A stretch of DNA of 64,000 nucleotides from Halorubrum halodurans (lineage in GTDB: Archaea; Halobacteriota; Halobacteria; Halobacteriales; Haloferacaceae): assembly GCF_002252985.1 (NCBI RefSeq), contig NZ_NHPJ01000059.1, positions 1-64,000 of the forward strand, in the 5' to 3' direction. Positions within the stretch are counted from its first letter, which is position 1; each line of letters begins with the position of its first letter. This document shows, in pieces, positions 2,236 to 63,684 of this stretch. Position numbers and translations under genes: made by a program. The notes under the pieces were generated by a model. It did not search any database and was not told where the DNA came from. It saw only the letters and a list, made by a program, of their open reading frames with translations.

Positions 2236-3318
2236 ATGGTTACCGAAATCGACCTGCGGGATTCCTCGCCTCGCGAGTTCCAAGACCGGATCGACGACGC
2301 GTTCGACGAGATTGAGACGGGTACCGAAGTCCTCGTTATCTCTGATCGAGATATCGACGCTCATCTGATCCAGTATCAGATCGAACGGGACTACGCCCTT
2401 GACTGGGACCACGAGGATCCTGACGCGGAGCCCCGCGAGGTTCGGGTGTCCAAACAGAAACCACTCGGTGACGATGAGTTAGGGACGTTCGACGTGCGTG
2501 ACCTGATACCGCAACGGCGACACGAGGTGTTGCTCGATACGTTTAATCGCCTCGGCCCCGGCGAGGGGTTCGTACTGGTCAACGACCACGATCCGAAGCC
2601 GCTCTACTACGAACTTCGATCGATGCACGGCGATGTCATCGATTGGGAGTATACAAGTCGTGAGTCGGGTGAGTGGCGCGTCAAAATCGTGAAGACCGAC
2701 GCTTCGATAGCCGACAACGAGGGCGTAATCACGCGATACGATGTCCGGGAGATCCCGAAGCCGGATCGCCACGAGACGATCCACCACCGGTACGGAATGA
2801 TACCCGACGGGGAGACGATGGAGCTCATCGCTCCACACGAGCCGCGACCGCTCCGTCGCGAGTTTCGGGAGCAATATGATGACACGTTCGACTGGGAGGT
2901 CGTCGAAAAGGAGCCCGGTCGCTGTCGGGTACAGATCACGAAGGCTGAACGAAGTGAATCCACAGCTGACGATGAGGATCTCACATCTACGATGTCTGAC
3001 AATGACGAGGTGTCCGCGGAAGCGTCCGTCGAGATCCCAGAGAGTACGGCTGAGCTCGACGTCCGCGACCTTCCACCTGCGCAACGCCACGAGAAGATCT
3101 TCGAGGCGTACGCGGACCTCGACGACGGAGCGGGATTTACCCTCGTGAACGACCACGACCCGAAGCCGCTGTACCACCAGTTCGACGCCGAAGCTGGCCC
3201 GGAGTTCTACTGGGAGTACCGCAAGCGTGATCCCGGCGAGTTCAGGGTGCTGATCGGGAAGGCCGAAACGCATGACGACGACCCGACTGTCGCGGAGGAT
3301 CCGAACGCACCGTTCTGA
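2236..3318 (+). CDS. Protein with four tandem DUF2249 domains
   Basis: A 360-residue protein made of four DUF2249 repeats (about residues 3-75, 83-157, 165-240 and 272-346). Repeats 2-4 show the signature: xDVRDLxPxxRHE, a helix, then FxLVNDHDPKPLYxxF and a closing DWEYxxRExGxxRVxIxK. Repeat 1 is divergent (VISDRDIDAHLIQYQ). A charged linker of about 30 residues precedes repeat 4. DUF2249 proteins are common near haloarchaeal and bacterial denitrification genes; the HDP/PxPL motif suggests metal or haem-related chemistry, but no function is established. A strong operator lies upstream. Single DUF2249 domains also occur at 7578 and at the C-terminus of the 34954 protein. Confidence 0.85.
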   Translation: MVTEIDLRDSSPREFQDRIDDAFDEIETGTEVLVISDRDIDAHLIQYQIERDYALDWDHEDPDAEPREVRVSKQKPLGDDELGTFDVRDLIPQRRHEVLLDTFNRLGPGEGFVLVNDHDPKPLYYELRSMHGDVIDWEYTSRESGEWRVKIVKTDASIADNEGVITRYDVREIPKPDRHETIHHRYGMIPDGETMELIAPHEPRPLRREFREQYDDTFDWEVVEKEPGRCRVQITKAERSESTADDEDLTSTMSDNDEVSAEASVEIPESTAELDVRDLPPAQRHEKIFEAYADLDDGAGFTLVNDHDPKPLYHQFDAEAGPEFYWEYRKRDPGEFRVLIGKAETHDDDPTVAEDPNAPF

Positions 3319-6779: not shown

Positions 6780-6972
6780 CCTTCCGTTGGCCGCGTATCT
6801 TCCTACTGGGACAGAGGAGGCGGTGCGTCGACGAGCGTGGGCCGTTTCTAGCGGGATTTGACACCTCAATGAACCTGTTCACCGATAGCGGCTCTCGAGT
6901 CGGCCGACCGCCCGTGGCGAGTCTCTTCTGTACTGCGCTCAGGGACAGACATGCTGGAGTTGACGTTAGACG

Positions 6973-6984
6973 GGAACATGTTCG
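6973..6984. promoter_or_regulatory. GAACATGTTC operator upstream of the DtxR-like gene
   Basis: GACGGGAACATGTTCG at 6969-6984 contains the perfect palindrome GAACATGTTC. It ends 40 bases upstream of the ATG at 7024. The same 16 bases recur exactly at 12199-12214. Confidence 0.6.
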
Positions 6985-7023
6985 GGGGTGCCCTCATGTC
7001 TGGAGCGTGTCGATCGCACGGTA

Positions 7024-7506
7024 ATGACTATCGACTACTCACAGGCGGACGTCTGCGGCTGCACGCGCCCCACCGCCTGCGTCGATCGGAACGGCGGGCT
7101 GTATCTTATCACCATCAGGCGACTCGGTACCGACTGTACCGATCGGGTTCGGACTGGAGAGGTGAGCGACCGCCTCGAGGTTGCACCGTCGAGCGTGACG
7201 GAGATGTTCGAGCGACTCGACGCCGCCGGGCTCCTCCGATACGAGAAGCGAGCCGGGGTCGTGCTCACCGATCGAGGGAGAGAGGTCGCGCTGGAACTCG
7301 AAGCGCGCCAGTGCGCCGTCCGTACGTTCTTCCGCCGTCGAACGGGGTTCGATATGCCTCTCGAAGTGGGTTACCGAATCGGATACGTTCTTCCGGACGA
7401 GGCGATCGAACGCCTGCAAGTGCTCGTCGACGGAACGTCGAGCACGTGTTCTGCGACCCCCTCAACTGGAATTGAACAGTGCCCATTCGCAGGAACAGAG
7501 TGTTGA
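7024..7506 (+). CDS. DtxR/MntR-like metal-dependent regulator with cysteine-rich ends
   Basis: 160 residues starting at the ATG at 7024. Residues 18-75 form a DtxR-type winged helix (YLITIRRLG..., EVSDRLEVAPSSVTEMFERL, AGLLRYEKRAGVVLTDRG). The middle resembles the metal-binding/dimerisation domain (LELEARQCAVRTFFRRRTG). The N-terminus carries CGCTRPTAC and the C-terminus a cluster CSATPSTGIEQCPFAGTEC, which could hold a metal or a redox-sensitive cluster. Divergent from the oxidase-like operon with operators on both sides of the intergenic region. Effector unknown; iron, manganese or nitrosative stress are plausible. Confidence 0.75.
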   Translation: MTIDYSQADVCGCTRPTACVDRNGGLYLITIRRLGTDCTDRVRTGEVSDRLEVAPSSVTEMFERLDAAGLLRYEKRAGVVLTDRGREVALELEARQCAVRTFFRRRTGFDMPLEVGYRIGYVLPDEAIERLQVLVDGTSSTCSATPSTGIEQCPFAGTEC

Positions 7507-7528
7507 AACCCACCGACGGGTACGTCCC

Positions 7529-7540
7529 CGAATACGTTCG
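7529..7540. promoter_or_regulatory. CGAA-N4-TTCG operator upstream of the small DUF2249 gene
   Basis: The core sits within CCCCGAATACGTTCGGGG (7526-7543), with perfect 7-base arms. It lies 38-49 bases upstream of the ATG at 7578. The centre differs from CATG, which helps define arms versus spacer. Confidence 0.65.
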
Positions 7541-7577
7541 GGGGAACACGCACCTCCCCGTCCATGCTTGAACGGAT

Positions 7578-7811
7578 ATGGCCACTGAGCGAAACGAGAC
7601 CGATCGTCGCCTGGATGTCCGAGAGATCGACGGCGAACCGTTCGGCGACATCATGGCCGAACTCGAAGCGCTCCCTGACGACGAGACGCTACTGTTGATC
7701 AACAGCTTCGAACCAGAGCCGTTGTATCAGGTCCTCGAAGAACGCGGGTTCCAGTACGAAACGACGTCTGACGGGTCCGACGTGTGGTATATCGAGATTC
7801 GACACGAGTAA
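7578..7811 (+). CDS. Single-domain DUF2249 protein
   Basis: 77 residues, one complete DUF2249 domain: RRLDVREIDGEPF at the start, LLLINSFEPEPLYQVLEERG in the middle and a C-terminal strand VWYIEIRH. The H-D-P of the larger proteins is replaced here by F-E-P, while the PLYxxL part is kept. A perfect inverted repeat is positioned as an operator, so it is probably co-regulated with the other genes around nirK. Function of the family is unknown. Confidence 0.8.
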   Translation: MATERNETDRRLDVREIDGEPFGDIMAELEALPDDETLLLINSFEPEPLYQVLEERGFQYETTSDGSDVWYIEIRHE

Positions 7812-7881
7812 CCTGATTCCGAGGGATCTGTCGGCCCCTAAATTGTCAGGTCGGAACGATTTTCCAGCGGGCTCGATCCAC

Positions 7882-7893
7882 CGAATATGTTCG
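7882..7893. promoter_or_regulatory. CGAA-N4-TTCG operator upstream of the peroxiredoxin gene
   Basis: CGAATATGTTCG lies 40-51 bases upstream of the ATG at 7933. AT-rich sequence (CTTATTCATTGG) follows. Confidence 0.6.
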
Positions 7894-7932
7894 TGTGAAG
7901 CTTATTCATTGGACAACAAGAAATGAATCCTG

Positions 7933-8412
7933 ATGCTTGAACGTTCAGATACTGCACCGCTGTTCACCGCGACGCGTGGAACGAGTGACCACGAGACGTT
8001 CGAATTGGAAGATCACATAGGAGACGGACCGACCGTGCTTGCGTTTTTCCCGGGCGCGTTCACGCCACCGTGTACGAATGAGATGGTCGCGCTTCAAGAC
8101 AATCTCGAGGCATTTCAGGACGCCGGAGCGACGATCTTCGGTGTGAGCGCCGATTCACCGTTCTCTCAGGGTGCCTTCCGCGACGAACACGGAATAGAGT
8201 TTGATCTCGTTAGCGACATGAGCGGTGATGTGATCCGGAAATACGACCTCGAGATCGACATTGAAGAGCTCGGATTGTACGGGATCGCGAACCGAGCAGT
8301 GTTCGTACTCGATGAGACGGGTACGGTGACGTATCGCTGGGTTGCAGACGATCCCACGAACGAGCCGGATTACGAGGAACTGCTTGAGGCCGTGAATACG
8401 GCAACCGAGTAG
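7933..8412 (+). CDS. Peroxiredoxin (AhpC/TSA, BCP-like)
   Basis: 159 residues with the thioredoxin-like peroxiredoxin fold. The active site FPGAFTPPCTNEM carries the peroxidatic cysteine at about residue 48. No second cysteine follows, so it looks like a one-cysteine enzyme needing an external thiol. Later motifs (GVSADSPFSQGAF, LYGIANRAVFVLDETG) fit the family. It would reduce peroxides or peroxynitrite. Its operator matches those of the nitrite-locus genes, consistent with a nitrosative/oxidative-stress role. Cytoplasmic; no signal peptide. Confidence 0.9.
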   Translation: MLERSDTAPLFTATRGTSDHETFELEDHIGDGPTVLAFFPGAFTPPCTNEMVALQDNLEAFQDAGATIFGVSADSPFSQGAFRDEHGIEFDLVSDMSGDVIRKYDLEIDIEELGLYGIANRAVFVLDETGTVTYRWVADDPTNEPDYEELLEAVNTATE

Positions 8413-8488
8413 AGCGACTCCCTTCCGATAGACCGATCCTCACTCACGATTGAGTAACTCTCTTTCCAAGACCACTCTATATTCGATT

Positions 8489-8842
8489 ATGACTCCTGAA
8501 CGGTCCAACAAGGAACGACGGCCCAACTGTCGGGACGATGCTCCTGATACTGGAGTCGACGCCGACTGCGTCCTGAGACGATTGCAACATCGAACAGCAC
8601 GGATCGAACGGCGTGAGATCGAGGAGGCTCTCTCTAAACTCGAAAATTGCGGCGATCTTACTGACGAGCAACGGCAAACTGTCCGGCTGTTTGGGGGTAC
8701 TCTCGCTTGGCGACTTACAGCAGATTTCGAGTCAATACTGAAACAATGTTCTCAAAATAACCAAGCGACTGCCCGCGCTGTTGCACGGTTGTTCAACCTC
8801 GTTCCAGAGAGCTATTTTGACGACGAGTGCGAACAGTCGTGA
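8489..8842 (+). CDS. Small protein resembling the glutamyl-tRNA reductase dimerisation domain
   Basis: 117 residues from the ATG at 8489; an upstream start at 8450 is less likely. Residues 38-105 (RREIEEALSKLENCGDLTDEQ, then RQTVRLFGGTLAWRL, then helices around SQNNQATARAVARLFNL) resemble the C-terminal helical dimerisation domain of HemA, where the pattern is ...LGDLTxxQRxxVxxxxxALxxxLL. The catalytic and NADPH domains are absent. It may be a free-standing regulator of haem synthesis or bind HemA. The call rests on pattern recognition only. It lies between the peroxiredoxin gene and nirK. Confidence 0.5.
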   Translation: MTPERSNKERRPNCRDDAPDTGVDADCVLRRLQHRTARIERREIEEALSKLENCGDLTDEQRQTVRLFGGTLAWRLTADFESILKQCSQNNQATARAVARLFNLVPESYFDDECEQS

Positions 8843-36432: not shown

Positions 36433-37416
36433 CTATGAGCGAGGATCTGTTCGACGTGTCGACCGTCCGGTTCGCTGGAGCTGTGACAGTCTGTCTTCGA
36501 GGACGTCGATGAGTTCTTCTGCCGTTCGACTAATCCGGCCGAGGCGCTCGCGAACGATCTCGGGATCGTCCGACTCCCACGCAGCGAGGTAGAACGCTGA
36601 CCCGCTCGTGTCGAGCCCGCAGTAGCGCCCGACGACGTAGGCGACGGCTTCGGCCTCGACTTCGCGTTTCGCCCGCTCGGTGTCGTCGTCGACATCGAAG
36701 TGGAGCAGGGCGTGTGCGTACTCGTGAATCAGCGTCCGCGCGAGGTTGGCCTCGTTCTCCCGATCACGCACCTCGACGAGCGGCTGAACGTCGACGAGGC
36801 TCAGCTGCTCGCAGATGCCCTTCGCCTCGCCGTGGGTCCACTCCTCGGCTGGAACGATCCGCACCGTCACGCCGAGGTCGTCAGCGGCGCCAGTCAACTG
36901 TTCGACGAGGTCGCCGGCGTCCCCAGTCGCTTCCGTGTCCAGGTCGGGAAGCGGTTCGCCCTCGGTCTGGGAGACGTCGAACACCGGCGCGGGCTTGAAC
37001 CCGACCAGCCCCTCGGACCACTCCTCGGGCGGCGTCTCGTCGTACTCACAATCGCTGTCCTCGTGGTAGCTCGGGGAGTTCTCGCACTCCGGGCACTGTT
37101 TCGCGATGATTGGCGCCCAGATCCAGATGGCCGACTCACCCTCCGTGACGTGACGGTCGAACTCCTCCTGCCACGTCCGGTAGCCAGCCACGCGGGTTGC
37201 CTCGGGACACTGCCGCTTGATCAGGAGCGTGTTCCGATACGAGTAGTCGTGGAAGCGACTCTGGACGTCAAGCCACTCCTGAAACTCCGCGCTGGCCTGC
37301 GCGTCGTCGACGCCGGCGACGAGGTCGTCGATCCACTGTTCGATCGTACTGTTCATCTCGTCGGATCGCGTGTCGGTCTGGTCGAAGGAGACCGACGAAT
37401 CACTGGTCGTAGCCAT
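36433..37416 (-). CDS. ArdC-like protein with zinc metallopeptidase domain
   Basis: 327 residues from the ATG at 37416. The N-terminal part (SRFHDYSYRNTLLIKRQCP, VAGYRTWQEEFDRHV) is the ArdC-type ssDNA-binding domain. A CPECENSPSYHEDSDC insert may bind zinc. The C-terminal half has HEYAHALLHF (HExxH) followed by EAEAVAYVVGRYCGL, the ImmA/IrrE-like peptidase pattern. ArdC proteins protect incoming plasmid DNA from restriction. Preceded by a T-tract/GC-hairpin leader. Confidence 0.8.
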   Translation of the reverse strand: MATTSDSSVSFDQTDTRSDEMNSTIEQWIDDLVAGVDDAQASAEFQEWLDVQSRFHDYSYRNTLLIKRQCPEATRVAGYRTWQEEFDRHVTEGESAIWIWAPIIAKQCPECENSPSYHEDSDCEYDETPPEEWSEGLVGFKPAPVFDVSQTEGEPLPDLDTEATGDAGDLVEQLTGAADDLGVTVRIVPAEEWTHGEAKGICEQLSLVDVQPLVEVRDRENEANLARTLIHEYAHALLHFDVDDDTERAKREVEAEAVAYVVGRYCGLDTSGSAFYLAAWESDDPEIVRERLGRISRTAEELIDVLEDRLSQLQRTGRSTRRTDPRS

Positions 37417-37465
37417 TGTGTTCACCGAATCAAGTTCACGGCAACTGCGTCTGCTCAGACCGCGC

Positions 37466-37493
37466 CGCACCCCTCAGGGGCGTTCAAAAAACC
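37466..37493 (-). promoter_or_regulatory. T-tract/GC-hairpin leader element, copy 1
   Basis: In gene orientation GGTTTTTTGAACG is followed by the hairpin CCCCTGAGGGG and then TGCGG. About 50 bases upstream of the ArdC-like start, right after the stop of the preceding gene. Confidence 0.5.
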
Positions 37494-37991: not shown

Positions 37992-39209
37992 TTAGTCAAC
38001 TACTGGTTGGACTGGCAGCCGTTCGAGTCGGCGATGGCACGGGATACAGAGAGTCAGCAGGTTACTCGGTACATCTGCATCGTCGACCGACTGGTCTGGG
38101 TCGTTGTAGAACCGGCGTCGAGGAATCCGGTGGTGAACCGGGAGATAACGACCGAATTTCTCGCGGTGAGCTTCACGGCCCATACCGCAGCGAAGGCAGG
38201 ACTCGTTGTCACGGGTGATGATCTCCTCACGAATCTGTGGCCAGTTCGAGCCAAACGGAACTATCTCAGTATCTGACTGACGGTAGTTTTCTAGATAGTC
38301 CGGGTCGGCCGCTTGAAGGGCCGTTCGCCACGTTCCGAATTCACGCTGATACGGATCGATGGTAAACTTCCCGTGTTCGTTCATTTCCGTTGTTGTCGGT
38401 GGGTGGCCCAGCTCATTCGCAACAGCCCGCAGTTCGGCTAATAACTCCTCCCGTGGAATTCGCCACCGCTCATTCGGCTCGAAGCCGGCAGCTCGGAGAG
38501 CTTCATTCCACGAACCGAATCGCTCCTGATAGACTGCTGCACTCCATTTCCCTTGGTTTCGCATTTCATCCTTCCGAGGGACATGGCCTAGCTCTTCGGC
38601 GAGACGGTTGAGTTCGGATATCAGATCCTCCTCGCTCACATCCCATACGGAGTGGACTTCCAACTCAGCCTGTCGAAGAGCACGATTCCAGGTTCCAAAC
38701 GCTCGCTTGTACGAATCCGAGGTGTAGGGGCCACTCCGGTCCATTTCATCTGTTGTGGGCGGTCGACCCAGTTTCTCAGCGAACCCCTGTAAGGCAGTAA
38801 TGAGTCTCTCTTCGGAGAGGTTCATTTCAACGTTCGGCTCAAAATCGGCCGCCCGTAGTGCTGCATTCCATCCTCCAAATCGCTTGCAGTATGTCTTCAC
38901 CGAATACTTTCCGTGAGCACTGTATTCACGCTCTGACGGGGTTCCTCCCACGATGTCGGCAACCGATTTGAGATCAGTAAGGAGGTCCTCTTCGGACGTC
39001 GATGGTCGTCCGTCTGGATCATTCGTTCCGGTTTGAAGTCCGGCAGCCTCGAGTGCGTTATTCCACGACTCGAACCGATTCCCGTACGTCTTCGAAGCAT
39101 GAGGTCCTGAATCGTCCATCTCACTCTGCGATGGGGGACGACCGAGTTCCTCAGCGAACTTCTGGAGCCGATTGAGGAGTTCATCGTCTGAGTACAGCTT
39201 CTTGCCCAT
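37992..39209 (-). CDS. HNH endonuclease with five homing-endonuclease-associated repeats
   Basis: 405 residues from the ATG at 39209. Five repeats of about 55-60 residues, each with a helix (LLAELRAVANELG), the motif GxPPTxxEM, then a second helix and F(G/E)xWNxALxAAG, which bind DNA in related homing enzymes. The C-terminus is an HNH domain: CLRCGMG, VHHRIPRR and LCIPCHRRLE (zinc-stabilised). Such genes are self-mobile or target specific DNA. No intron or intein is visible here. A shorter relative lies at 60664. Confidence 0.85.
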   Translation of the reverse strand: MGKKLYSDDELLNRLQKFAEELGRPPSQSEMDDSGPHASKTYGNRFESWNNALEAAGLQTGTNDPDGRPSTSEEDLLTDLKSVADIVGGTPSEREYSAHGKYSVKTYCKRFGGWNAALRAADFEPNVEMNLSEERLITALQGFAEKLGRPPTTDEMDRSGPYTSDSYKRAFGTWNRALRQAELEVHSVWDVSEEDLISELNRLAEELGHVPRKDEMRNQGKWSAAVYQERFGSWNEALRAAGFEPNERWRIPREELLAELRAVANELGHPPTTTEMNEHGKFTIDPYQREFGTWRTALQAADPDYLENYRQSDTEIVPFGSNWPQIREEIITRDNESCLRCGMGREAHREKFGRYLPVHHRIPRRRFYNDPDQSVDDADVPSNLLTLCIPCHRRLERLPVQPVVD

Positions 39210-39391
39210 GATTTCTGAGGGGATTGAGTCACTCAGTTTGGTCCCGACTCGGTATTTGAATGTCCGCACTCACTCATTCCGGATATTGATCGGAACGGCG
39301 ACTCAAGGGGCGATCCTCGCGAGTCGTATGGCAGCCACCCCCACTTTTTGGAAGCGACGGCTCGCCGACTAGGATATACTGAAATTCAGTA

Positions 39392-58187: not shown

Positions 58188-58593
58188 TCAGGCCATCGCC
58201 TCTTGGAACCGCTCACGCAGCGCGTCCTCGCGTTCTTCGAACTGCTCGACTTTCTCCTGCAGGTCGTCGCTGACCCGTTCGATGCTCGCCAGCGCTCGTT
58301 CGCCGGCCAGTGAGGCCTGTGACCCGTCGTCACCGTCCGCCTCTAGCTGCTGCTCGTAGGCCTGCTCGACGCGCTCGATCGTGCCTTCCGGGTTGAACAG
58401 GATGTCGTTGGCGATCCGAACGTACTGATCGAGGGACGCTCCCTCTTTCCCCTGGAAGAAGTGGGTGAGCGCGTACGTCGCGCCGGAATGCAGCGTCCAC
58501 ATATCGATCTCGAAGGGGGACGCCGCATTGGCTTCTGCATCGCCGGCGGCACGCTCGGCTAGGTAGTCCGGGAAGCCCAGCAGGCTGTGAACT
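58188..58593 (-). pseudogene. 3' part of a plasmid gene split by a TnpB element
   Basis: Continuing from VHSLLGFPDYLAERAAGDAE through FEIDMWTLHSGATYALTHFF to FEEREDALRERFQEAMA, stop at 58188. This helical C-terminal portion is preceded by the right end of the TnpB element. Its N-terminal half is at 60010-60338. A close copy of its last 47 residues survives at 48003. The family is a conserved haloarchaeal plasmid protein of unknown function. Confidence 0.75.
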
Positions 58594-60007
58594 GTCTCAG
58601 GATCAAGTCCTGAGACTTCCCGTGGATTAGTCGGACACTCCCGTGATACCATCGGTCTGATATCCTCGAACGGTATCGTGGGTCACGGTCGGGGCGTCCA
58701 CGGCCCCCGATGCCTGCCGTCGCACCGTCCGCACAGTGGGAAGGCTGTTGAGAGCAGGCACAGTCCACTCCTGATGGTTTTTGATACCCTTCGCGGCAAT
58801 GTTGACGCTTGCCCCACGGTCCGCGTGGTCTTGATGTCCACAGTCTCGACATTTGAACCGCTTTTTATTCCGATTCGTACGCTCCGTGTGTCCACACATC
58901 GGACACTCTTGGCTGGTGTATTCGGGGTTAATCCAGGCCGTTGGTATGCCCTCGAAACCGGCTTTATATGATGTGTAATGTTGGAGCGCACGGAACGGTA
59001 AATGGTGTAAGCGCCGGTTCATCCGCGTGCCGTAGTCGAGACTGTCGCGTATCTCTTTGAGGTCTTCAAAGACGATACACGGGTCCTCGAACTGCCGGCT
59101 CCATTTCACGATGTGTCGAGATACTTTGTGGAGCCTATCGCGGACAAACCGCTCTTCCTGATCTTCCAGCGTGTCGTGAACGCTCCGCTTTCCCGCATTC
59201 TGGACACGCTTCCGGATCGTGAAATAGCGGTGACGTTCAAACTTAATTTCCGGAAACTCGATGACGATCGTATCCTTGATGCCATCCTCAGAGAACGCCG
59301 TGAGGGCTACGTTGTCTTCGTTCACGTCCACGCCGACGACCGTCTGCGAGTCCTGCTTGTCCCGAACGGTCTGATCGGTATTGGTGACGTTGACGTGTAG
59401 CTCGGGGCTGTCGTTATGGAATAGGACTTCGGCCGTTCCAATCTCCCACTCATCACTTTCGAGTCCGACTTTGAGGATATCGAGATGGGCGTCACTCCCC
59501 TTGAGGAGGCCCTCGACATGCTGGTACGGCTTCGCGCTGATGCGGAACGCAACGTCGCCATCGTCGGTGAGAAACAAGTTGTACCCTTCCTCGTAGTTGG
59601 CTCGGAGTGGGTAGATGCCATCTTTCGTGTGGCTCGGTTGGTCAAAGTTGTCGTACTCGTAGTAGTTCTCCATCGCGCCGAGTGCTTTAGCGACGACACG
59701 CTGCGTCGTGTTCTTCACGAGGTCGACATCGGCAGCCACACGGTCGGGGATCATGTCCCAGTCCACGCCGTTCTTGGCAAGACGGATCGTTTCGTTATAC
59801 ACCCTCCGGGATTCGATACAGGCACCGTACAGCAGGTTTTCGTTGCCACTTTGTATCTCAAGTTGGAAGTCTAATGTCTTGACAAGTGCCTGTTTCGACG
59901 GCATTACTTCCGTTTTCGATTCGGAGTGTTGTCTTCTTCAAACTCAGCCATCCGGAGTGAAAGTGGTATGATGGCCTCTACAACCTCCCTTAAATCAAGT
60001 CCTGAGA
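58594..60007 (-). mobile_element. IS200/IS605-group element with tnpB only (IS1341 type)
   Basis: Contains tnpB and no tnpA. The right end (58594-58616) is the hairpin GTCTCAGGA-TCAAG-TCCTGAGAC. The left end carries ATCAAGTCCTGAGA at 59994-60007, the same 14 bases as in the right end (58602-58615). Both ends abut the two halves of one host gene. No target duplication is expected for this group. It must have been moved by a TnpA in trans. Confidence 0.75.
58627..59904 (-). CDS. tnpB: TnpB RNA-guided nuclease (IS200/IS605 group)
   Basis: 425 residues. Split RuvC residues are all visible: Asp in VGVDVNEDNVAL, Glu in IVFEDLKEIRD, Asp in DHADRGASVNIAAKG. A four-cysteine zinc finger (CPMCGHTERTNRNK, FKCRDCGH) lies between the last two. 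The N-terminal helical domain (LDFQLEIQSGNENL) is normal for the family. Length is complete and active-site residues are intact, so a functional guide-dependent nuclease is plausible. The guide RNA would overlap the 3' end of tnpB and the right end of the element. Confidence 0.93.
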   Translation of the reverse strand: MPSKQALVKTLDFQLEIQSGNENLLYGACIESRRVYNETIRLAKNGVDWDMIPDRVAADVDLVKNTTQRVVAKALGAMENYYEYDNFDQPSHTKDGIYPLRANYEEGYNLFLTDDGDVAFRISAKPYQHVEGLLKGSDAHLDILKVGLESDEWEIGTAEVLFHNDSPELHVNVTNTDQTVRDKQDSQTVVGVDVNEDNVALTAFSEDGIKDTIVIEFPEIKFERHRYFTIRKRVQNAGKRSVHDTLEDQEERFVRDRLHKVSRHIVKWSRQFEDPCIVFEDLKEIRDSLDYGTRMNRRLHHLPFRALQHYTSYKAGFEGIPTAWINPEYTSQECPMCGHTERTNRNKKRFKCRDCGHQDHADRGASVNIAAKGIKNHQEWTVPALNSLPTVRTVRRQASGAVDAPTVTHDTVRGYQTDGITGVSD

Positions 60008-60009
60008 TC

Positions 60010-60338
60010 CTGAGTCTGTAGACGTCGGCCGGGTTGATGATCGCGTACGAGTCAGCCGGGATGTGAAATAGCGACTCCGCATCGGTGCCACCATTCGCTT
60101 CTGCTTGTAACCGCGACGGCTCGACGAGTGCGTTGAACCGCTCGGTTTCGACCCACTCCTCAGTGTAGGGGTTGCGATACGCGACTGCTGTCTCGATCGC
60201 CTGTGGAAGCTCTCGAATCGCCTGACTGAAGCTGACTGGATCGGGGGTAGCGTGTTGCTCCGCGTACCACTCAGGTAGTTCAGTGTCGGTTCGCCCATCG
60301 AGGCCCGCGAAGACTGTCGCTGTCTCTGGGTCTTTCAT
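60010..60338 (-). pseudogene. 5' part of the plasmid gene split by the TnpB element
   Basis: From the ATG at 60338 (MKDPETATVFAGLDGR) through VSFSQAIRELPQAIETAVAY and HIPADSYAIINPADVYRL, where the element's left end begins. The open frame runs on into the element (to 59904), adding about 35 unrelated residues. A leader element lies 33 bases upstream. The centre of the original protein may also be missing. Confidence 0.7.
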
Positions 60339-60370
60339 ATCTACTCCGAAGGCGCGATGCGGTCTGGTCT

Positions 60371-60402
60371 GCGCCTCCACCCATCACTGGCGCAAAAAAC
60401 GA
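60371..60402 (-). promoter_or_regulatory. T-tract/GC-hairpin leader element, copy 4
   Basis: Gene orientation: GTTTTTTGCGCC, AGTGAT, GGGTGGAGGCGC. It ends 33 bases before the ATG at 60338. Confidence 0.5.
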
Positions 60403-60660: not shown

Positions 60661-60696
60661 GCCTTACCCCTCACCCCCTCGTGGGGGGAGACCAAC
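60661..60696 (-). promoter_or_regulatory. GC-hairpin leader element, copy 5
   Basis: Gene orientation: GTTGGTCTCCCCCC, ACGA, GGGGGTGAGGGG. The T-tract is weaker than in the other copies. It ends 14 bases before the ATG at 60647 and encodes the last residues of the HNH gene. Confidence 0.45.
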
Positions 60697-61488
60697 ACAC
60701 TCTCCCCCGGCTATCTCTTGCGGCTGTGTGCTGTCGACAATCGTATCCAGTCGCTGTGGGGCGACGGCCTCCCAGATGAGATGATGCTTCGAACAGACGG
60801 TCACGAGATTCGAGACGCGATTTGCTTGCTCGTGGTCAAACCGCCCGTCGGGATCGACGAAGAACTTCCGCGGAACCAGATGGTGGACTGAGATATCCTT
60901 TCCCACCTGCTCTTGATGATCTACTTGGGTCATCCCACACCATGGTGTTTGACACTCGTAGTCATCGCGTTTCAACGCTTTTTGTCGCTGTTCTGGCCAG
61001 TTCGGGCCGTAGGGGATCGCCGACCGCTCCTGATAGGACTGTGGTTGTGAGAAGCCAGCTTCAGTGAGTGTCTCTTCCCATCCACCAAACCGTTCGAGAT
61101 ATGTACACTTGTGAAACTTCCCGATTCGGTTCATCTCGCCGCTCGATGGCGGACGACCGAACTGATCTGTAAGGCGGTTAATTTCGTCCAACAAGTCCTG
61201 ATCGGTGAGTCGGTACTTTCGATTCGGAGCGAAGCCAGCCTCACGAAGCGCCTCGTTCCAACTCCCGAACTTGTTCTGACAGACGCGTTGGGAATACTCC
61301 CCGTGCTCGCTCATCTCCTTTGCTGTCGGTGGTTTTCCTAATTTGTCTGCGACACGCTGAATGTCGTTGAGAATCACGTCTACATCCGTTACGATCTGGT
61401 CGCGGCGATGGACGGCCGTTACGTGCCCGCCCAGTTCGTTGGAGGTCGCAAACGACTCGCCACAGTAGTCACAGATATGCTCTGTCAC
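60664..61488 (-). CDS. C2H2 zinc finger - HNH endonuclease with two DNA-binding repeats
   Basis: 274 residues starting at GTG 61488, which has a near-perfect Shine-Dalgarno GGAGGTGA 7 bases upstream; the frame is open further to 61590. A zinc finger CDYCGESFATSNELGGHVTA comes first. Two homing-endonuclease-associated repeats follow (GKPPTAKEM...KFGSWNEALREAG and GRPPSSGEM...RFGGWEETLTEAG), then the HNH domain (CQTPWCGMT, VHHLVPRKF, VCSKHHLIW). Related to the 37992 gene but with fewer repeats. Target unknown. Confidence 0.8.
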   Translation of the reverse strand: MTEHICDYCGESFATSNELGGHVTAVHRRDQIVTDVDVILNDIQRVADKLGKPPTAKEMSEHGEYSQRVCQNKFGSWNEALREAGFAPNRKYRLTDQDLLDEINRLTDQFGRPPSSGEMNRIGKFHKCTYLERFGGWEETLTEAGFSQPQSYQERSAIPYGPNWPEQRQKALKRDDYECQTPWCGMTQVDHQEQVGKDISVHHLVPRKFFVDPDGRFDHEQANRVSNLVTVCSKHHLIWEAVAPQRLDTIVDSTQPQEIAGGECVGLPPRGGEG

Positions 61489-61495
61489 GGCTTCG

Positions 61496-61618
61496 TCACC
61501 TCCCTCCGCGGTTCCCCCGTAATGCGTTATAAACTCTTGACCTCGTACGCAACTCCTGTTCCAAGTAGAACCCTCCAAGGAGCGATTCATCTCGCCACGA
61601 ATTTTCTGTATCGGTCAT
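61496..61618 (-). CDS. Possible 40-residue peptide upstream of the HNH gene
   Basis: ATG at 61618 gives MTDTENSWRDESLLGGFYLE followed by QELRTRSRVYNALRGNRGGR. Its stop codon is the TGA of the GGAGGTGA Shine-Dalgarno of the HNH gene, so it would be translationally coupled. A leader element lies 23 bases upstream of this ATG, the usual distance. No family known; may be a leader peptide. Confidence 0.4.
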   Translation of the reverse strand: MTDTENSWRDESLLGGFYLEQELRTRSRVYNALRGNRGGR

Positions 61619-61640
61619 AGCTCGGTGACGCGGAGTGAGT

Positions 61641-61733: not shown

Positions 61734-63098
61734 ATGGCTGTACTGGACGACCTCTCGGGATTCGAGTTCGAGGACGTGATGGAGGACGTGTTCCGGAACC
61801 TCGGCTACGAGAACGTCCGCCAGGCCGACCGCACGGCTGACGAGGGTCGCGACGTCATTATGGAGGAGGTCGTCGACGGCACGCGGCGCGCGATCATCGT
61901 CGAGTGCAAGCACACGGGGACGGTCGGGCGGCCGGTCGTCCAGAAGCTCCACTCCGCCATCGCGACATTCGACTTCGACGGCCCCAAACGCGGAATGGTC
62001 GTCACGACCGGCCGGTTTACGAACCCTGCTCAGGAGTACGCAAACCGCCTCCAGCAGAACGACGACCCACACCCGATCGAGCTGCTCGATGGCGAGGACC
62101 TCCGGGAGATTGCCGACGAGATCGGCCTCGACCTCTACAACGGGCGCATCGAGATTCTCTGCGACGAGACGCTCCGCCCGTACGACCCTGCCGCCGACGT
62201 CGACGTGCCGGTCACGGAGGCGTTCCGCGACATCGAGAACATCGAGGCTGCCGACCTGCCAGAACCGCATTCAGCGGTGACGTTCCGGCCGGTGGCCGCG
62301 GTCACCGCGGACACGAACGCCGTCTTCGAGACGTCGGTGGGCGTCATCCACCGGATCAACGACCGGACCCGATTCGTTGCCCACGCCGAACGCGGGCAGC
62401 CACAGGTCGCGAACGAGGATGTAGCAACGCTGGTCACCGAGAACCTTCACGCGACGGTCGACCTTGACGCCGAGCAGTTCGGAGAGGTGTTCGACGCCGT
62501 CGAGGAGCGCCGGTTCGGACAGACCCAAACGGATTACAAGGAGTGGGCCGTCGAGCGCCTCCAGCAACACCACACGACGACGGTCACCTACACCGGCGAC
62601 AACAACGTCACGTACAACAAGACCTGCGAGCCGAACCGCTCGGACATCTCCGTCCAGTCGATCGAACCAGTGTACCTCCCCGAGGTTCGGCACACGACCG
62701 ACCTCCAGGAGTACACCTACCCCTACGAGTACTACGCGGCAGGCCCGTCACGAGTGACAGCCGAGGACGGCATCCATCGGTGCGTCCACTGTGACACGAG
62801 CGGCGGCGACGAGACGTACACCTACTGTCCGAACTGCGGGGCCATCGCCTGCTCCAGCCACATCAAAACGGAGCGGCTGGAAGGCGAGCCGATCTGTACG
62901 GGCTGTGCCGTGACGGAACGGTTTGCGCTGAAGACGAAGTACTTCTACGACGAGGAAAATCTCGAGGCGTTCCGCGAGGAGTACGCCGAGATGCCGCTTC
63001 ACGAGAAGGCGATGGAGAACAAGTGGCTGGCCGGGGGAAGCGTTGTTGCGACGATTCTGCTCGTCGTCGGACTACTCGTCATCGGCGGCATCATCTGA
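61734..63098 (+). CDS. Membrane-anchored Mrr-like restriction endonuclease
   Basis: 454 residues from the ATG at 61734. Residues 8-120 are a PD-(D/E)xK Mrr-type domain: FEDVMEDVFRNLGYENVR, Asp 40 in DEGRDVI and Glu 57/Lys 59 in VECKH, then QKLHSAIATF. The middle domain is not recognised. A double zinc ribbon follows (CVHCDTSGG, YCPNCGAIACSSH, CTGCA), and the C-terminus is a single helix (VVATILLVVGLLVIGGII). A nuclease tethered to the inner membrane face could act on incoming DNA. Type IV (modified DNA) specificity is possible but unproven. Confidence 0.85.
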   Translation: MAVLDDLSGFEFEDVMEDVFRNLGYENVRQADRTADEGRDVIMEEVVDGTRRAIIVECKHTGTVGRPVVQKLHSAIATFDFDGPKRGMVVTTGRFTNPAQEYANRLQQNDDPHPIELLDGEDLREIADEIGLDLYNGRIEILCDETLRPYDPAADVDVPVTEAFRDIENIEAADLPEPHSAVTFRPVAAVTADTNAVFETSVGVIHRINDRTRFVAHAERGQPQVANEDVATLVTENLHATVDLDAEQFGEVFDAVEERRFGQTQTDYKEWAVERLQQHHTTTVTYTGDNNVTYNKTCEPNRSDISVQSIEPVYLPEVRHTTDLQEYTYPYEYYAAGPSRVTAEDGIHRCVHCDTSGGDETYTYCPNCGAIACSSHIKTERLEGEPICTGCAVTERFALKTKYFYDEENLEAFREEYAEMPLHEKAMENKWLAGGSVVATILLVVGLLVIGGII

Positions 63099-63111: not shown

Positions 63112-63684
63112 TCACGCCGGCTCAGCGGCCATCTCTTCGAGCGCCTGCTCAAGCGGGCCGTGGAACTGCCAGCTGGCCCGCTCGAAGGCTTCCTCGGTCG
63201 GACCATCCCAGCGCGGGAAGGCGGAGTGACCACTCACCTTGACGGTCCACTCGGACGGCTCCTCGAACGGGTTCCGGGTCGGGAGCTCGACGACGTAGAG
63301 ATACTCCTCGTCGCCGTGAATGCCGTCGGCTGGGTTCTCTACGCCGTGTCCGAGCAGAAACATCGGCTGGTCGAGGTGCTCCATATTGTCCGGGTCGAGG
63401 AGATCCGAGGGTTGGTCAGCGTGGATGCTCCGGTCACGCCCTTCGTCCACGTAGAGGGTCATCGCCGAGAGCGTGTCGAGGAACAGGAACTGGGCAGCGG
63501 CGTACGCAGCCCCGCGCTCTGTTCGTGTCTCGTCAAGCAGCTGCTTCAGCTGGTCCAGGTCATGGAGGACGCTATCGGGATACCCGTCCGAGTGGCGGTA
63601 GATTTGTGCGATGCGGTCGGTATCGGACTGTTCGCCTGCGGTCTCGCTCCGTTGGATGAATCGGAGTTGACTTCGTGTCGACAT
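63112..63684 (-). CDS. Conserved plasmid-type hypothetical protein
   Basis: 190 residues. Motif RIAQIYRHSDGYPDSVLHDL near the start and YLYVVELPTRNP later; the pattern is familiar from haloarchaeal plasmids but has no known role. Alpha/beta, no membrane segment. Convergent with the Mrr-like gene, 13 bases apart. A GC-hairpin leader lies 7 bases upstream. Confidence 0.7.
   Translation of the reverse strand: MSTRSQLRFIQRSETAGEQSDTDRIAQIYRHSDGYPDSVLHDLDQLKQLLDETRTERGAAYAAAQFLFLDTLSAMTLYVDEGRDRSIHADQPSDLLDPDNMEHLDQPMFLLGHGVENPADGIHGDEEYLYVVELPTRNPFEEPSEWTVKVSGHSAFPRWDGPTEEAFERASWQFHGPLEQALEEMAAEPA

Follow-up and report, generated by a model that had tools for sequence, protein, structure and literature searches.

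A predicted Mrr-type nuclease with a C-terminal membrane-like helix, frequent on haloarchaeal plasmids

What might a DNA-cutting domain do when it is joined to a membrane helix and is often carried on plasmids? The question was raised by a gene near the end of the window (the whole stretch of Halorubrum halodurans DNA analysed, 64,000 nucleotides). An earlier note on this DNA described its product as an Mrr-like nuclease with a membrane helix and a double zinc ribbon; the nuclease domain and the conserved helix were borne out, whereas the double zinc ribbon was not. The gene had been placed correctly in coordinates and frame, with 454 aa translated from the ATG at 61734 (Table 1). The open reading frame is evidently a real gene because it contains a significant Mrr_cat match, has close relatives in many genera and is under purifying selection (median dN/dS 0.100 in 104 comparisons, each against the window's gene). 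The ATG was aligned with the start of relatives, and few positions in the 60 bases upstream were conserved at 80% among 75 loci. A longer frame with a GTG start at 61635 was rejected as unsupported, since relatives start at the ATG and the upstream DNA is poorly conserved.

Full-length comparisons used the 131 of 141 loci that gave open proteins of 420 to 480 residues; loci with internal stops, truncations or read-through lengths were excluded. The 131 rows comprised 116 distinct sequences, the window's own included, and some genomes were entered twice. A diverse set of 38 sequences also included the window's sequence. No solved relative of the whole protein was found by sequence in the PDB. 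The full-length structure prediction, made from an alignment containing only rows 78 to 95% identical to the window protein, had a mean pLDDT of 39.

Table 1. Coordinates of the nuclease gene, its parts and two other genes of the window
Feature	Position	Strand	Basis or remark
Whole gene	61734..63098	+	454 aa: Mrr nuclease, unrecognised centre, FYVE-like zinc finger, C-terminal membrane helix (predicted)
Mrr_cat nuclease domain, residues 4-126	61743..62111	+	Pfam PF04471, E 1.7e-26
Catalytic Asp 40 (predicted)	61851..61853	+	Family motif; D in 38/38 diverse sequences
Catalytic Glu 57 - Cys 58 - Lys 59 (predicted)	61902..61910	+	Family motif; E and K each in 37/38 diverse sequences
Centre, residues 136-345, without recognised domain	62139..62768	+	Conserved YTGxNN...Y...C.P and VYxP stretches
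Eight-ligand binuclear zinc finger, residues 350-391 (predicted)	62781..62906	+	FYVE-like spacing
Conserved linker preceding membrane helix, residues 396-430	62919..63023	+	Sequence conservation
C-terminal membrane-like helix, residues 431-454	63024..63095	+	Hydropathy 2.81; helix in predicted structure
190-aa protein	63112..63684	-	Tail to tail with nuclease gene; frequent plasmid neighbour
ArdC-like protein of same plasmid-type backbone	36433..37470	-	PF08401, E 3.5e-05

The window protein scored 93 bits against the Pfam Mrr_cat cut-off of 21, the domain was matched at E 1 or better in all 38 diverse sequences, and the protein is a predicted Mrr_cat PD-(D/E)XK nuclease. Asp 40, Glu 57 and Lys 59, proposed earlier as catalytic, were found at these residues inside the domain. 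The earlier note would have been contradicted by a triad missing from most homologues; the set was complete in 37 of the 38 diverse sequences and in 130 of the 131 full-length rows. In the exception, L128, it was altered to D-A-E, the sequence being otherwise aligned over its full length. Among five relatives from elsewhere in the phylum, the triad was kept in L151, L152 and L154 and read D-Q-K in L153; L155, split over two frames, was excluded from this count. Of the regions compared, residues 1-135 showed the lowest median dN/dS, 0.041, in about 100 comparisons that each involved the window's gene. The nearest PDB folds to the nuclease part were MspJI and AspBHI (rows 1 to 5, E 1.3e-05 to 4.9e-04; mean pLDDT of the model 39). 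PADLOC matches were confined to the nuclease domain and comprised PDC-S02, mREase_IV and ZorD (ZorD at E 2.7e-06). No reader domain for modified bases was matched by Pfam in the window protein, the centre of which has no assigned domain.

When other haloarchaeal Mrr_cat frames were scanned for membrane windows, five of six had none, so the C-terminal helix is apparently not general among haloarchaeal Mrr_cat proteins. The sixth, L193, is an Mrr_cat protein of the window's genus with a 744-residue frame, in which three membrane-like windows and a long C-terminal part follow the nuclease domain. Given L193, Mrr nucleases may have become linked to the membrane on more than one occasion.

The centre had been said to contain no recognised domain, and it gave no Pfam match above cut-off and nothing up to E 10 in a PDB sequence search. 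Within residues 138-345, eight positions were invariant over 29 sequences, five of these from elsewhere in the phylum. Used alone, the centre matched in 29 of 294 genomes of the phylum, and every listed place was also found by the whole-protein profile.

Downstream of the centre, zinc ligands were found in the pattern C350-x2-C353-x11-C365-x2-C368-x4-C373-x2-H376-x11-C388-x2-C391, which is a cross-brace order. All eight were present in 37 of the 38 diverse sequences and 130 of the 131 rows; L139 lacked two of them and was otherwise aligned over its full length. Elsewhere in the phylum, L151 and L152 had all eight, L153 had His at the last position, L154 gave no fit and L155 fitted in the alignment. 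The order and spacing of the eight ligands are those of FYVE fingers. Pfam FYVE was matched, always below cut-off, in 3 of the 38 diverse sequences (best E 0.62) and in 4 of 6 relatives elsewhere in the phylum (E 0.0015 to 0.019). Three PDB entries, all FYVE, were matched by the whole-protein profile, at values that are not significant (E 0.051 to 0.35). The finger profile matched 11 entries, none significantly; six of the 11 were FYVE (E 0.085 to 0.33), the top match was a small HVO-2753-like zinc protein (E 0.077), and the remaining non-FYVE entries were ribosomal S26e, a histone methyltransferase, a cellulose synthase subunit and an artificial protein.

With a model of the C-terminal part (mean pLDDT 66), Foldseek returned nothing at E 0.001; in its ranking GATA3 and RING chains came first, a Rab effector 10th and a FYVE domain 23rd. 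When 300 of the Foldseek chains were compared again with VIA-align, rows 1, 3-7 and 10 of the 18 shown were FYVE domains, and rows 2 and 12 were Rab-effector fingers, which are related to FYVE. Rows 1 to 7 had Z 2.9-4.4 (best Z 4.4, 56 residues, 3.1 Å), and by the tool's own warning Z below 8 may reflect merely a common arrangement. Two tandem zinc ribbons were disfavoured because the ligands form a single cross-brace order and double-ribbon Pfam matches fell below cut-off. Ligand order, the weak profile matches and the weak structural matches thus favour one eight-ligand, two-zinc finger over the double zinc ribbon claimed before. The zinc part is better read as one FYVE-like binuclear finger, on weak fold support, and is not called a FYVE domain here. 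FYVE domains that bind phosphoinositides carry the motifs WxxD and RRHHCR; both were absent from the sequence around C350 and C365. Burroughs et al. reportedly treated prokaryotic binuclear treble clefs in 2011 and may mention related proteins.

The single C-terminal transmembrane helix of the earlier note agrees with the sole membrane-like window of the protein, at residue 436, and with helices predicted at 430-450 of the full-length model (block pLDDT 63-87) and at 93-114 of the C-terminal model (block pLDDT 73-94). A membrane-like window lay within the last 45 residues in 131/131 rows, the best 19-residue window averaging 2.22 to 3.38; one row, L117, had a second such window. The concern that the helix might not be conserved was answered by its presence in all 116 distinct sequences, against a lone C-terminal window in 2 of 185 control ORFs. 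These controls were ORFs of at least 100 aa, called by a simple script at 14 haloarchaeal loci, with family members removed. At the end of full-length relatives elsewhere in the phylum a membrane-like window was found in L151, L152 and L153, and near the end in L154. The helix region had the highest median dN/dS of the regions compared (0.223; about 100 comparisons, all against the window's gene), yet its hydrophobicity was kept. With its single hydrophobic C-terminal helix the product is a predicted tail-anchored membrane protein. Since one positive and no negative residue followed the window over all 131 rows, the bulk of such a protein must lie on one side of the membrane, probably the cytoplasmic one because it has a nuclease domain.

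Strong matches (E 1e-91 or better) were found in 134 of 292 Halobacteria genomes, some of them long partial matches or copies with internal stops, so that this threshold does not prove an intact gene. Any match at all was found in 165; the 31 genomes left out of the 134 comprised 11 with E between 1e-91 and 1e-15 and 20 weaker. In a sample of 392 genomes of the phylum, 82 had a match; 46 of these belong to the same order as the window and 36 to other parts of the phylum. Among the latter, which judging by the phylum may be methanogens or their kin, three genomes held full-length relatives (G561, G563 and G346), one a partial (G366) and one a split relative (G501); most others gave nuclease-domain matches. 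Matches were also found in 85 plasmid records, 71 of them covering at least 80%, including pNRC200, pNG600, pJ7-1 and pSTJ002. Wherever the feature was named among the 60 plasmids listed, it was annotated as 'restriction endonuclease'. By MOB-suite, 81 of the 85 records were non-mobilizable and 4 conjugative. Copies were also present on contigs of 2 to 4.5 Mb and elsewhere in the phylum. A second copy in the window's genome (L192, G000:C125, 2992-4356) was 88% identical. After it come a small ORF resembling AbrB and a gene resembling ParA, both named by reading the sequence.

Many copies were 95 to 96% identical across genera, among the best 80 of the 134 confirmed stretches. A quick tree of 75 relatives, built from the same scan, required 43 genus changes (73 rows, 23 genera), where shuffled labels required 42 to 46 and 13 of 200 shuffles reached 43 or fewer. 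For families, 31 changes were required, against 30 to 37 in shuffles, 5 of 200 reaching 31 or fewer. Genus on the tree is therefore close to shuffled, with apparently only a faint trace of host lineages. As judged from these sequences the gene has moved between genera and is often plasmid-borne, which changes whose interest the nuclease probably serves. The gene also appears to be often lost or decayed, because L128 lacks two catalytic residues and 18 partial matches of 62 to 89% identity were listed. A viral origin was not favoured: none of 50,697 phage records matched, and of the two loci retained by a scan of viral contigs both were similar in the zinc region only, at 31%.

At least 47 of the 60 listed plasmids also carried the 190-aa gene, and on 43 of these its start was no more than 2.5 kb from that of the nuclease gene. 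At 20 loci on other contigs no neighbouring match to its protein was found at E 1e-5, and it was dropped as a candidate partner. The ArdC-like gene was listed on at least 34 of the 60 plasmids carrying the nuclease gene (29 within 20 kb) and PolB on at least 32 (15 within 20 kb). Orc1/Cdc6 and TFB genes were annotated near the nuclease on several of the five plasmids viewed. On the same five, no methylase was annotated within 15 to 20 kb, where many genes were hypothetical. No match to the ArdC-like, 190-aa, PolB or Orc proteins was found at E 1e-5 within about 8 kb of the 20 loci on other contigs, and no neighbour family, with genes called by a simple caller, recurred in more than four of these. 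By this comparison no partner gene is kept in all contexts.

Variable genes lay between the ArdC-like gene and the nuclease. In pJ7-1 they included a DUF1837 gene and a DEAD/DEAH helicase, a pair that we take to be Hachiman. In pNG600, and by reading also in the window, metal-related genes such as merA and a P-type ATPase were found there. L152 adjoined McrC, an AAA ATPase and a UvrD/PD-(D/E)XK protein, forming a restriction island, and the distant L156 adjoined a NERD protein and a NACHT-TPR protein. Ten neighbour ORFs were scanned at seven loci, and the remaining five comprised two that matched nothing, a permease, a HEAT-repeat protein and a TnpB-type transposon protein; because these five say nothing for defence, a defence context is present at some loci and not general. 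L156 itself (6942-8561, elsewhere in the phylum) carried an N-terminal zinc-ribbon-like stretch, an Mrr domain and further zinc motifs, and part of it was weakly similar to the centre and finger of the nuclease family (E 3.4e-4).

Other genes of the window were also noted. A TnpB-type RNA-guided nuclease gene (58627-59904, minus strand) is flanked on either side by a piece (59904-60380 and 58188-58652) with a match to the first or the last part of phage family phrog_13083, and the TnpB-type insertion seems to split a gene of that family (58188-60380). HNH proteins with homing-endonuclease-associated repeats are encoded at 60664-61590 (two stretches; this one also carries a C2H2-finger-like stretch) and at 37992-39269 (five stretches). 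A protein with four DUF2249 stretches is encoded at 2236-3318.

The domain layout, the kept catalytic and zinc residues, the kept hydrophobic helix and the purifying selection are read directly from the sequences; in addition we infer that the protein is anchored in the cell with its bulk in the cytoplasm, that it cuts DNA and prefers DNA on its way in, and that it acts in defence and benefits the plasmid. The nuclease is best explained as a place-restricted DNA cutter because the membrane helix is constant, no methylase is kept, the gene travels on plasmids and the catalytic domain is under the strongest constraint. Action on incoming DNA at the membrane may reasonably be supposed, given the bacterial precedent of SNIPE (PMC13190303). 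Tentatively, and at somewhat less than an even chance, we favour a solitary, plasmid-spread, tail-anchored and cytoplasm-facing nuclease that would attack DNA entering at the membrane and serve its plasmid. The C-terminal helix would anchor the protein in the cytoplasmic membrane with the remainder in the cytoplasm, the Mrr domain would cleave DNA using a metal ion, and the unrecognised centre and the FYVE-like finger would position the nuclease on DNA, lipid or an entry complex. Viral or plasmid DNA would be met at entry and the chromosome mostly spared because the enzyme is confined to the membrane, and a partner methylase would therefore be unnecessary. The cell, and above all the resident plasmid, would be protected from rivals. 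Against an entry nuclease may be set the great uniformity of the protein, whereas recognition proteins in an arms race often diversify, together with the empty search of phage records, the five scanned neighbours that give no hint of defence and the apparently frequent loss or decay of the gene.

The strongest rival is modification-dependent cutting, because the catalytic domain is of Mrr type and the Mrr of Haloferax volcanii, as described in PMC6471742, lowers transformation by GATC-methylated plasmids. The protein would then be a Type IV restriction enzyme that chooses DNA by its foreign base modification, with the helix adding only convenience or oligomerisation. The shared Mrr_cat family, the lack of a kept methylase partner on the five plasmids viewed and around the 20 loci on other contigs, and the nearest folds (both of modification-dependent enzymes, from a model of mean pLDDT 39) all fit this explanation. 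It was nevertheless judged somewhat unlikely: a helix kept in every distinct sequence is hardly expected if incidental, five of six other haloarchaeal Mrr_cat frames have no membrane window, and Pfam matched no reader domain, though the unassigned centre tempers this last point. Were the helix itself packed outside the membrane as a hydrophobic oligomerisation tail, the anchor would disappear, and the anchor does rest on hydropathy and low-depth models only. A helix whose sequence changes freely while every row keeps a strongly hydrophobic window, followed over 131 rows by one positive and no negative residue, makes such a tail scarcely credible.

Two further explanations keep the protein at the membrane. 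A housekeeping nuclease, processing plasmid DNA there in replication, partition or transfer and having no defence role, would suit a gene that often shares its plasmid record with ArdC-like and PolB genes, lies near Orc1/Cdc6 and TFB genes on several plasmids and has a second copy near a ParA-like gene in the window's genome. It is improbable, since copies on the 2 to 4.5 Mb contigs and elsewhere in the phylum have no ArdC-like, 190-aa, PolB or Orc match within about 8 kb, and even among the listed plasmids the ArdC-like and PolB genes have the partial counts given above. Alternatively, the protein might sense the stress of a membrane disturbed by infection and then cut the DNA of its own cell, as an abortive defence. 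The zinc finger could act together with the helix as the sensor, and in Zorya membrane disturbance is described as coupled to a nuclease (PMC12904381). No gene that could serve as antidote or regulator accompanies the nuclease in every context, the 190-aa protein being unmatched around the 20 other loci, and this explanation seems quite improbable.

If the reading as a tail-anchored entry nuclease is true, cutting DNA at the door extends to archaea, with a different nuclease and a different anchor, and entry cutting serves plasmids as well as hosts. Some of the variation among haloarchaea in transformation and in plasmid transfer might have its cause here, and the gene would offer a single-gene system that can be tested in standard haloarchaeal strains. 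A wider claim is rather unlikely to hold as a whole, namely that the plasmids of archaea encode an entry nuclease that sits at the membrane, distinguishes foreign from own DNA by location and not by sequence or methylation, evolved independently of SNIPE, is aimed mainly at rival plasmids and viruses, and uses a membrane module with an archaeal FYVE-like finger. Even as a Type IV enzyme, the protein would have a strong match in 134/292 Halobacteria genomes, yet passages on Mrr in papers on archaeal restriction genes do not mention its layout (PMC6471742, PMC5867850, PMC10609329). In one survey, Type III and IV systems are put at fewer than 0.2 per genome, and Type IV is said to be possibly under-represented (PMC10609329). 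A search by title and abstract, with subscription literature mostly outside its scope, found no published description of the Mrr-centre-finger-helix layout.

Among known systems, eukaryotic membrane-trafficking FYVE fingers share the order and spacing of the eight zinc ligands with the window protein, which differs in lacking WxxD and RRHHCR, motifs typical of FYVE domains, and in having only profile and structure matches below significance. MspJI and AspBHI share the nearest folds to the nuclease part, with no reader domain seen in the window protein. The Mrr of H. volcanii (HVO_0682) and other Mrr_cat Type IV enzymes have an Mrr_cat domain and no methylase partner, as here; HVO_0682, compared by its published description, is shorter, at 1005 bp (PMC5867850). 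Unlike the window protein, L195 and L196, Mrr_cat frames of 336 and 335 residues, show no membrane window. ArdC-N domains are said to be associated mainly with conjugative elements (PMC5512222).

For Zorya and Kiwa, a link between membrane location and action against injected DNA is described (PMC12904381). An Mrr-like domain is common to the PADLOC ZorD model and the window protein; Zorya type I comprises four proteins and Kiwa two (PMC12904381), whereas the present system is one polypeptide. SNIPE of E. coli is a membrane-anchored anti-phage nuclease that is described as cutting phage DNA during injection, with the nuclease as its best-conserved region and the N-terminal anchoring region as its least conserved (PMC13190303). 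Its parts are arranged as an N-terminal anchor, DUF4041 and a GIY-YIG domain near the C-terminus, whereas in the window protein an Mrr-type domain comes first and is followed by the centre, the finger and the C-terminal helix; neither DUF4041 nor GIY-YIG was matched in it by Pfam at E 1. Common to both are a single-pass membrane anchor (predicted here), a cytoplasmic part without known function and a nuclease domain, with the nuclease most conserved and the anchoring region least. The haloarchaeal nuclease would work like SNIPE without being related to it.
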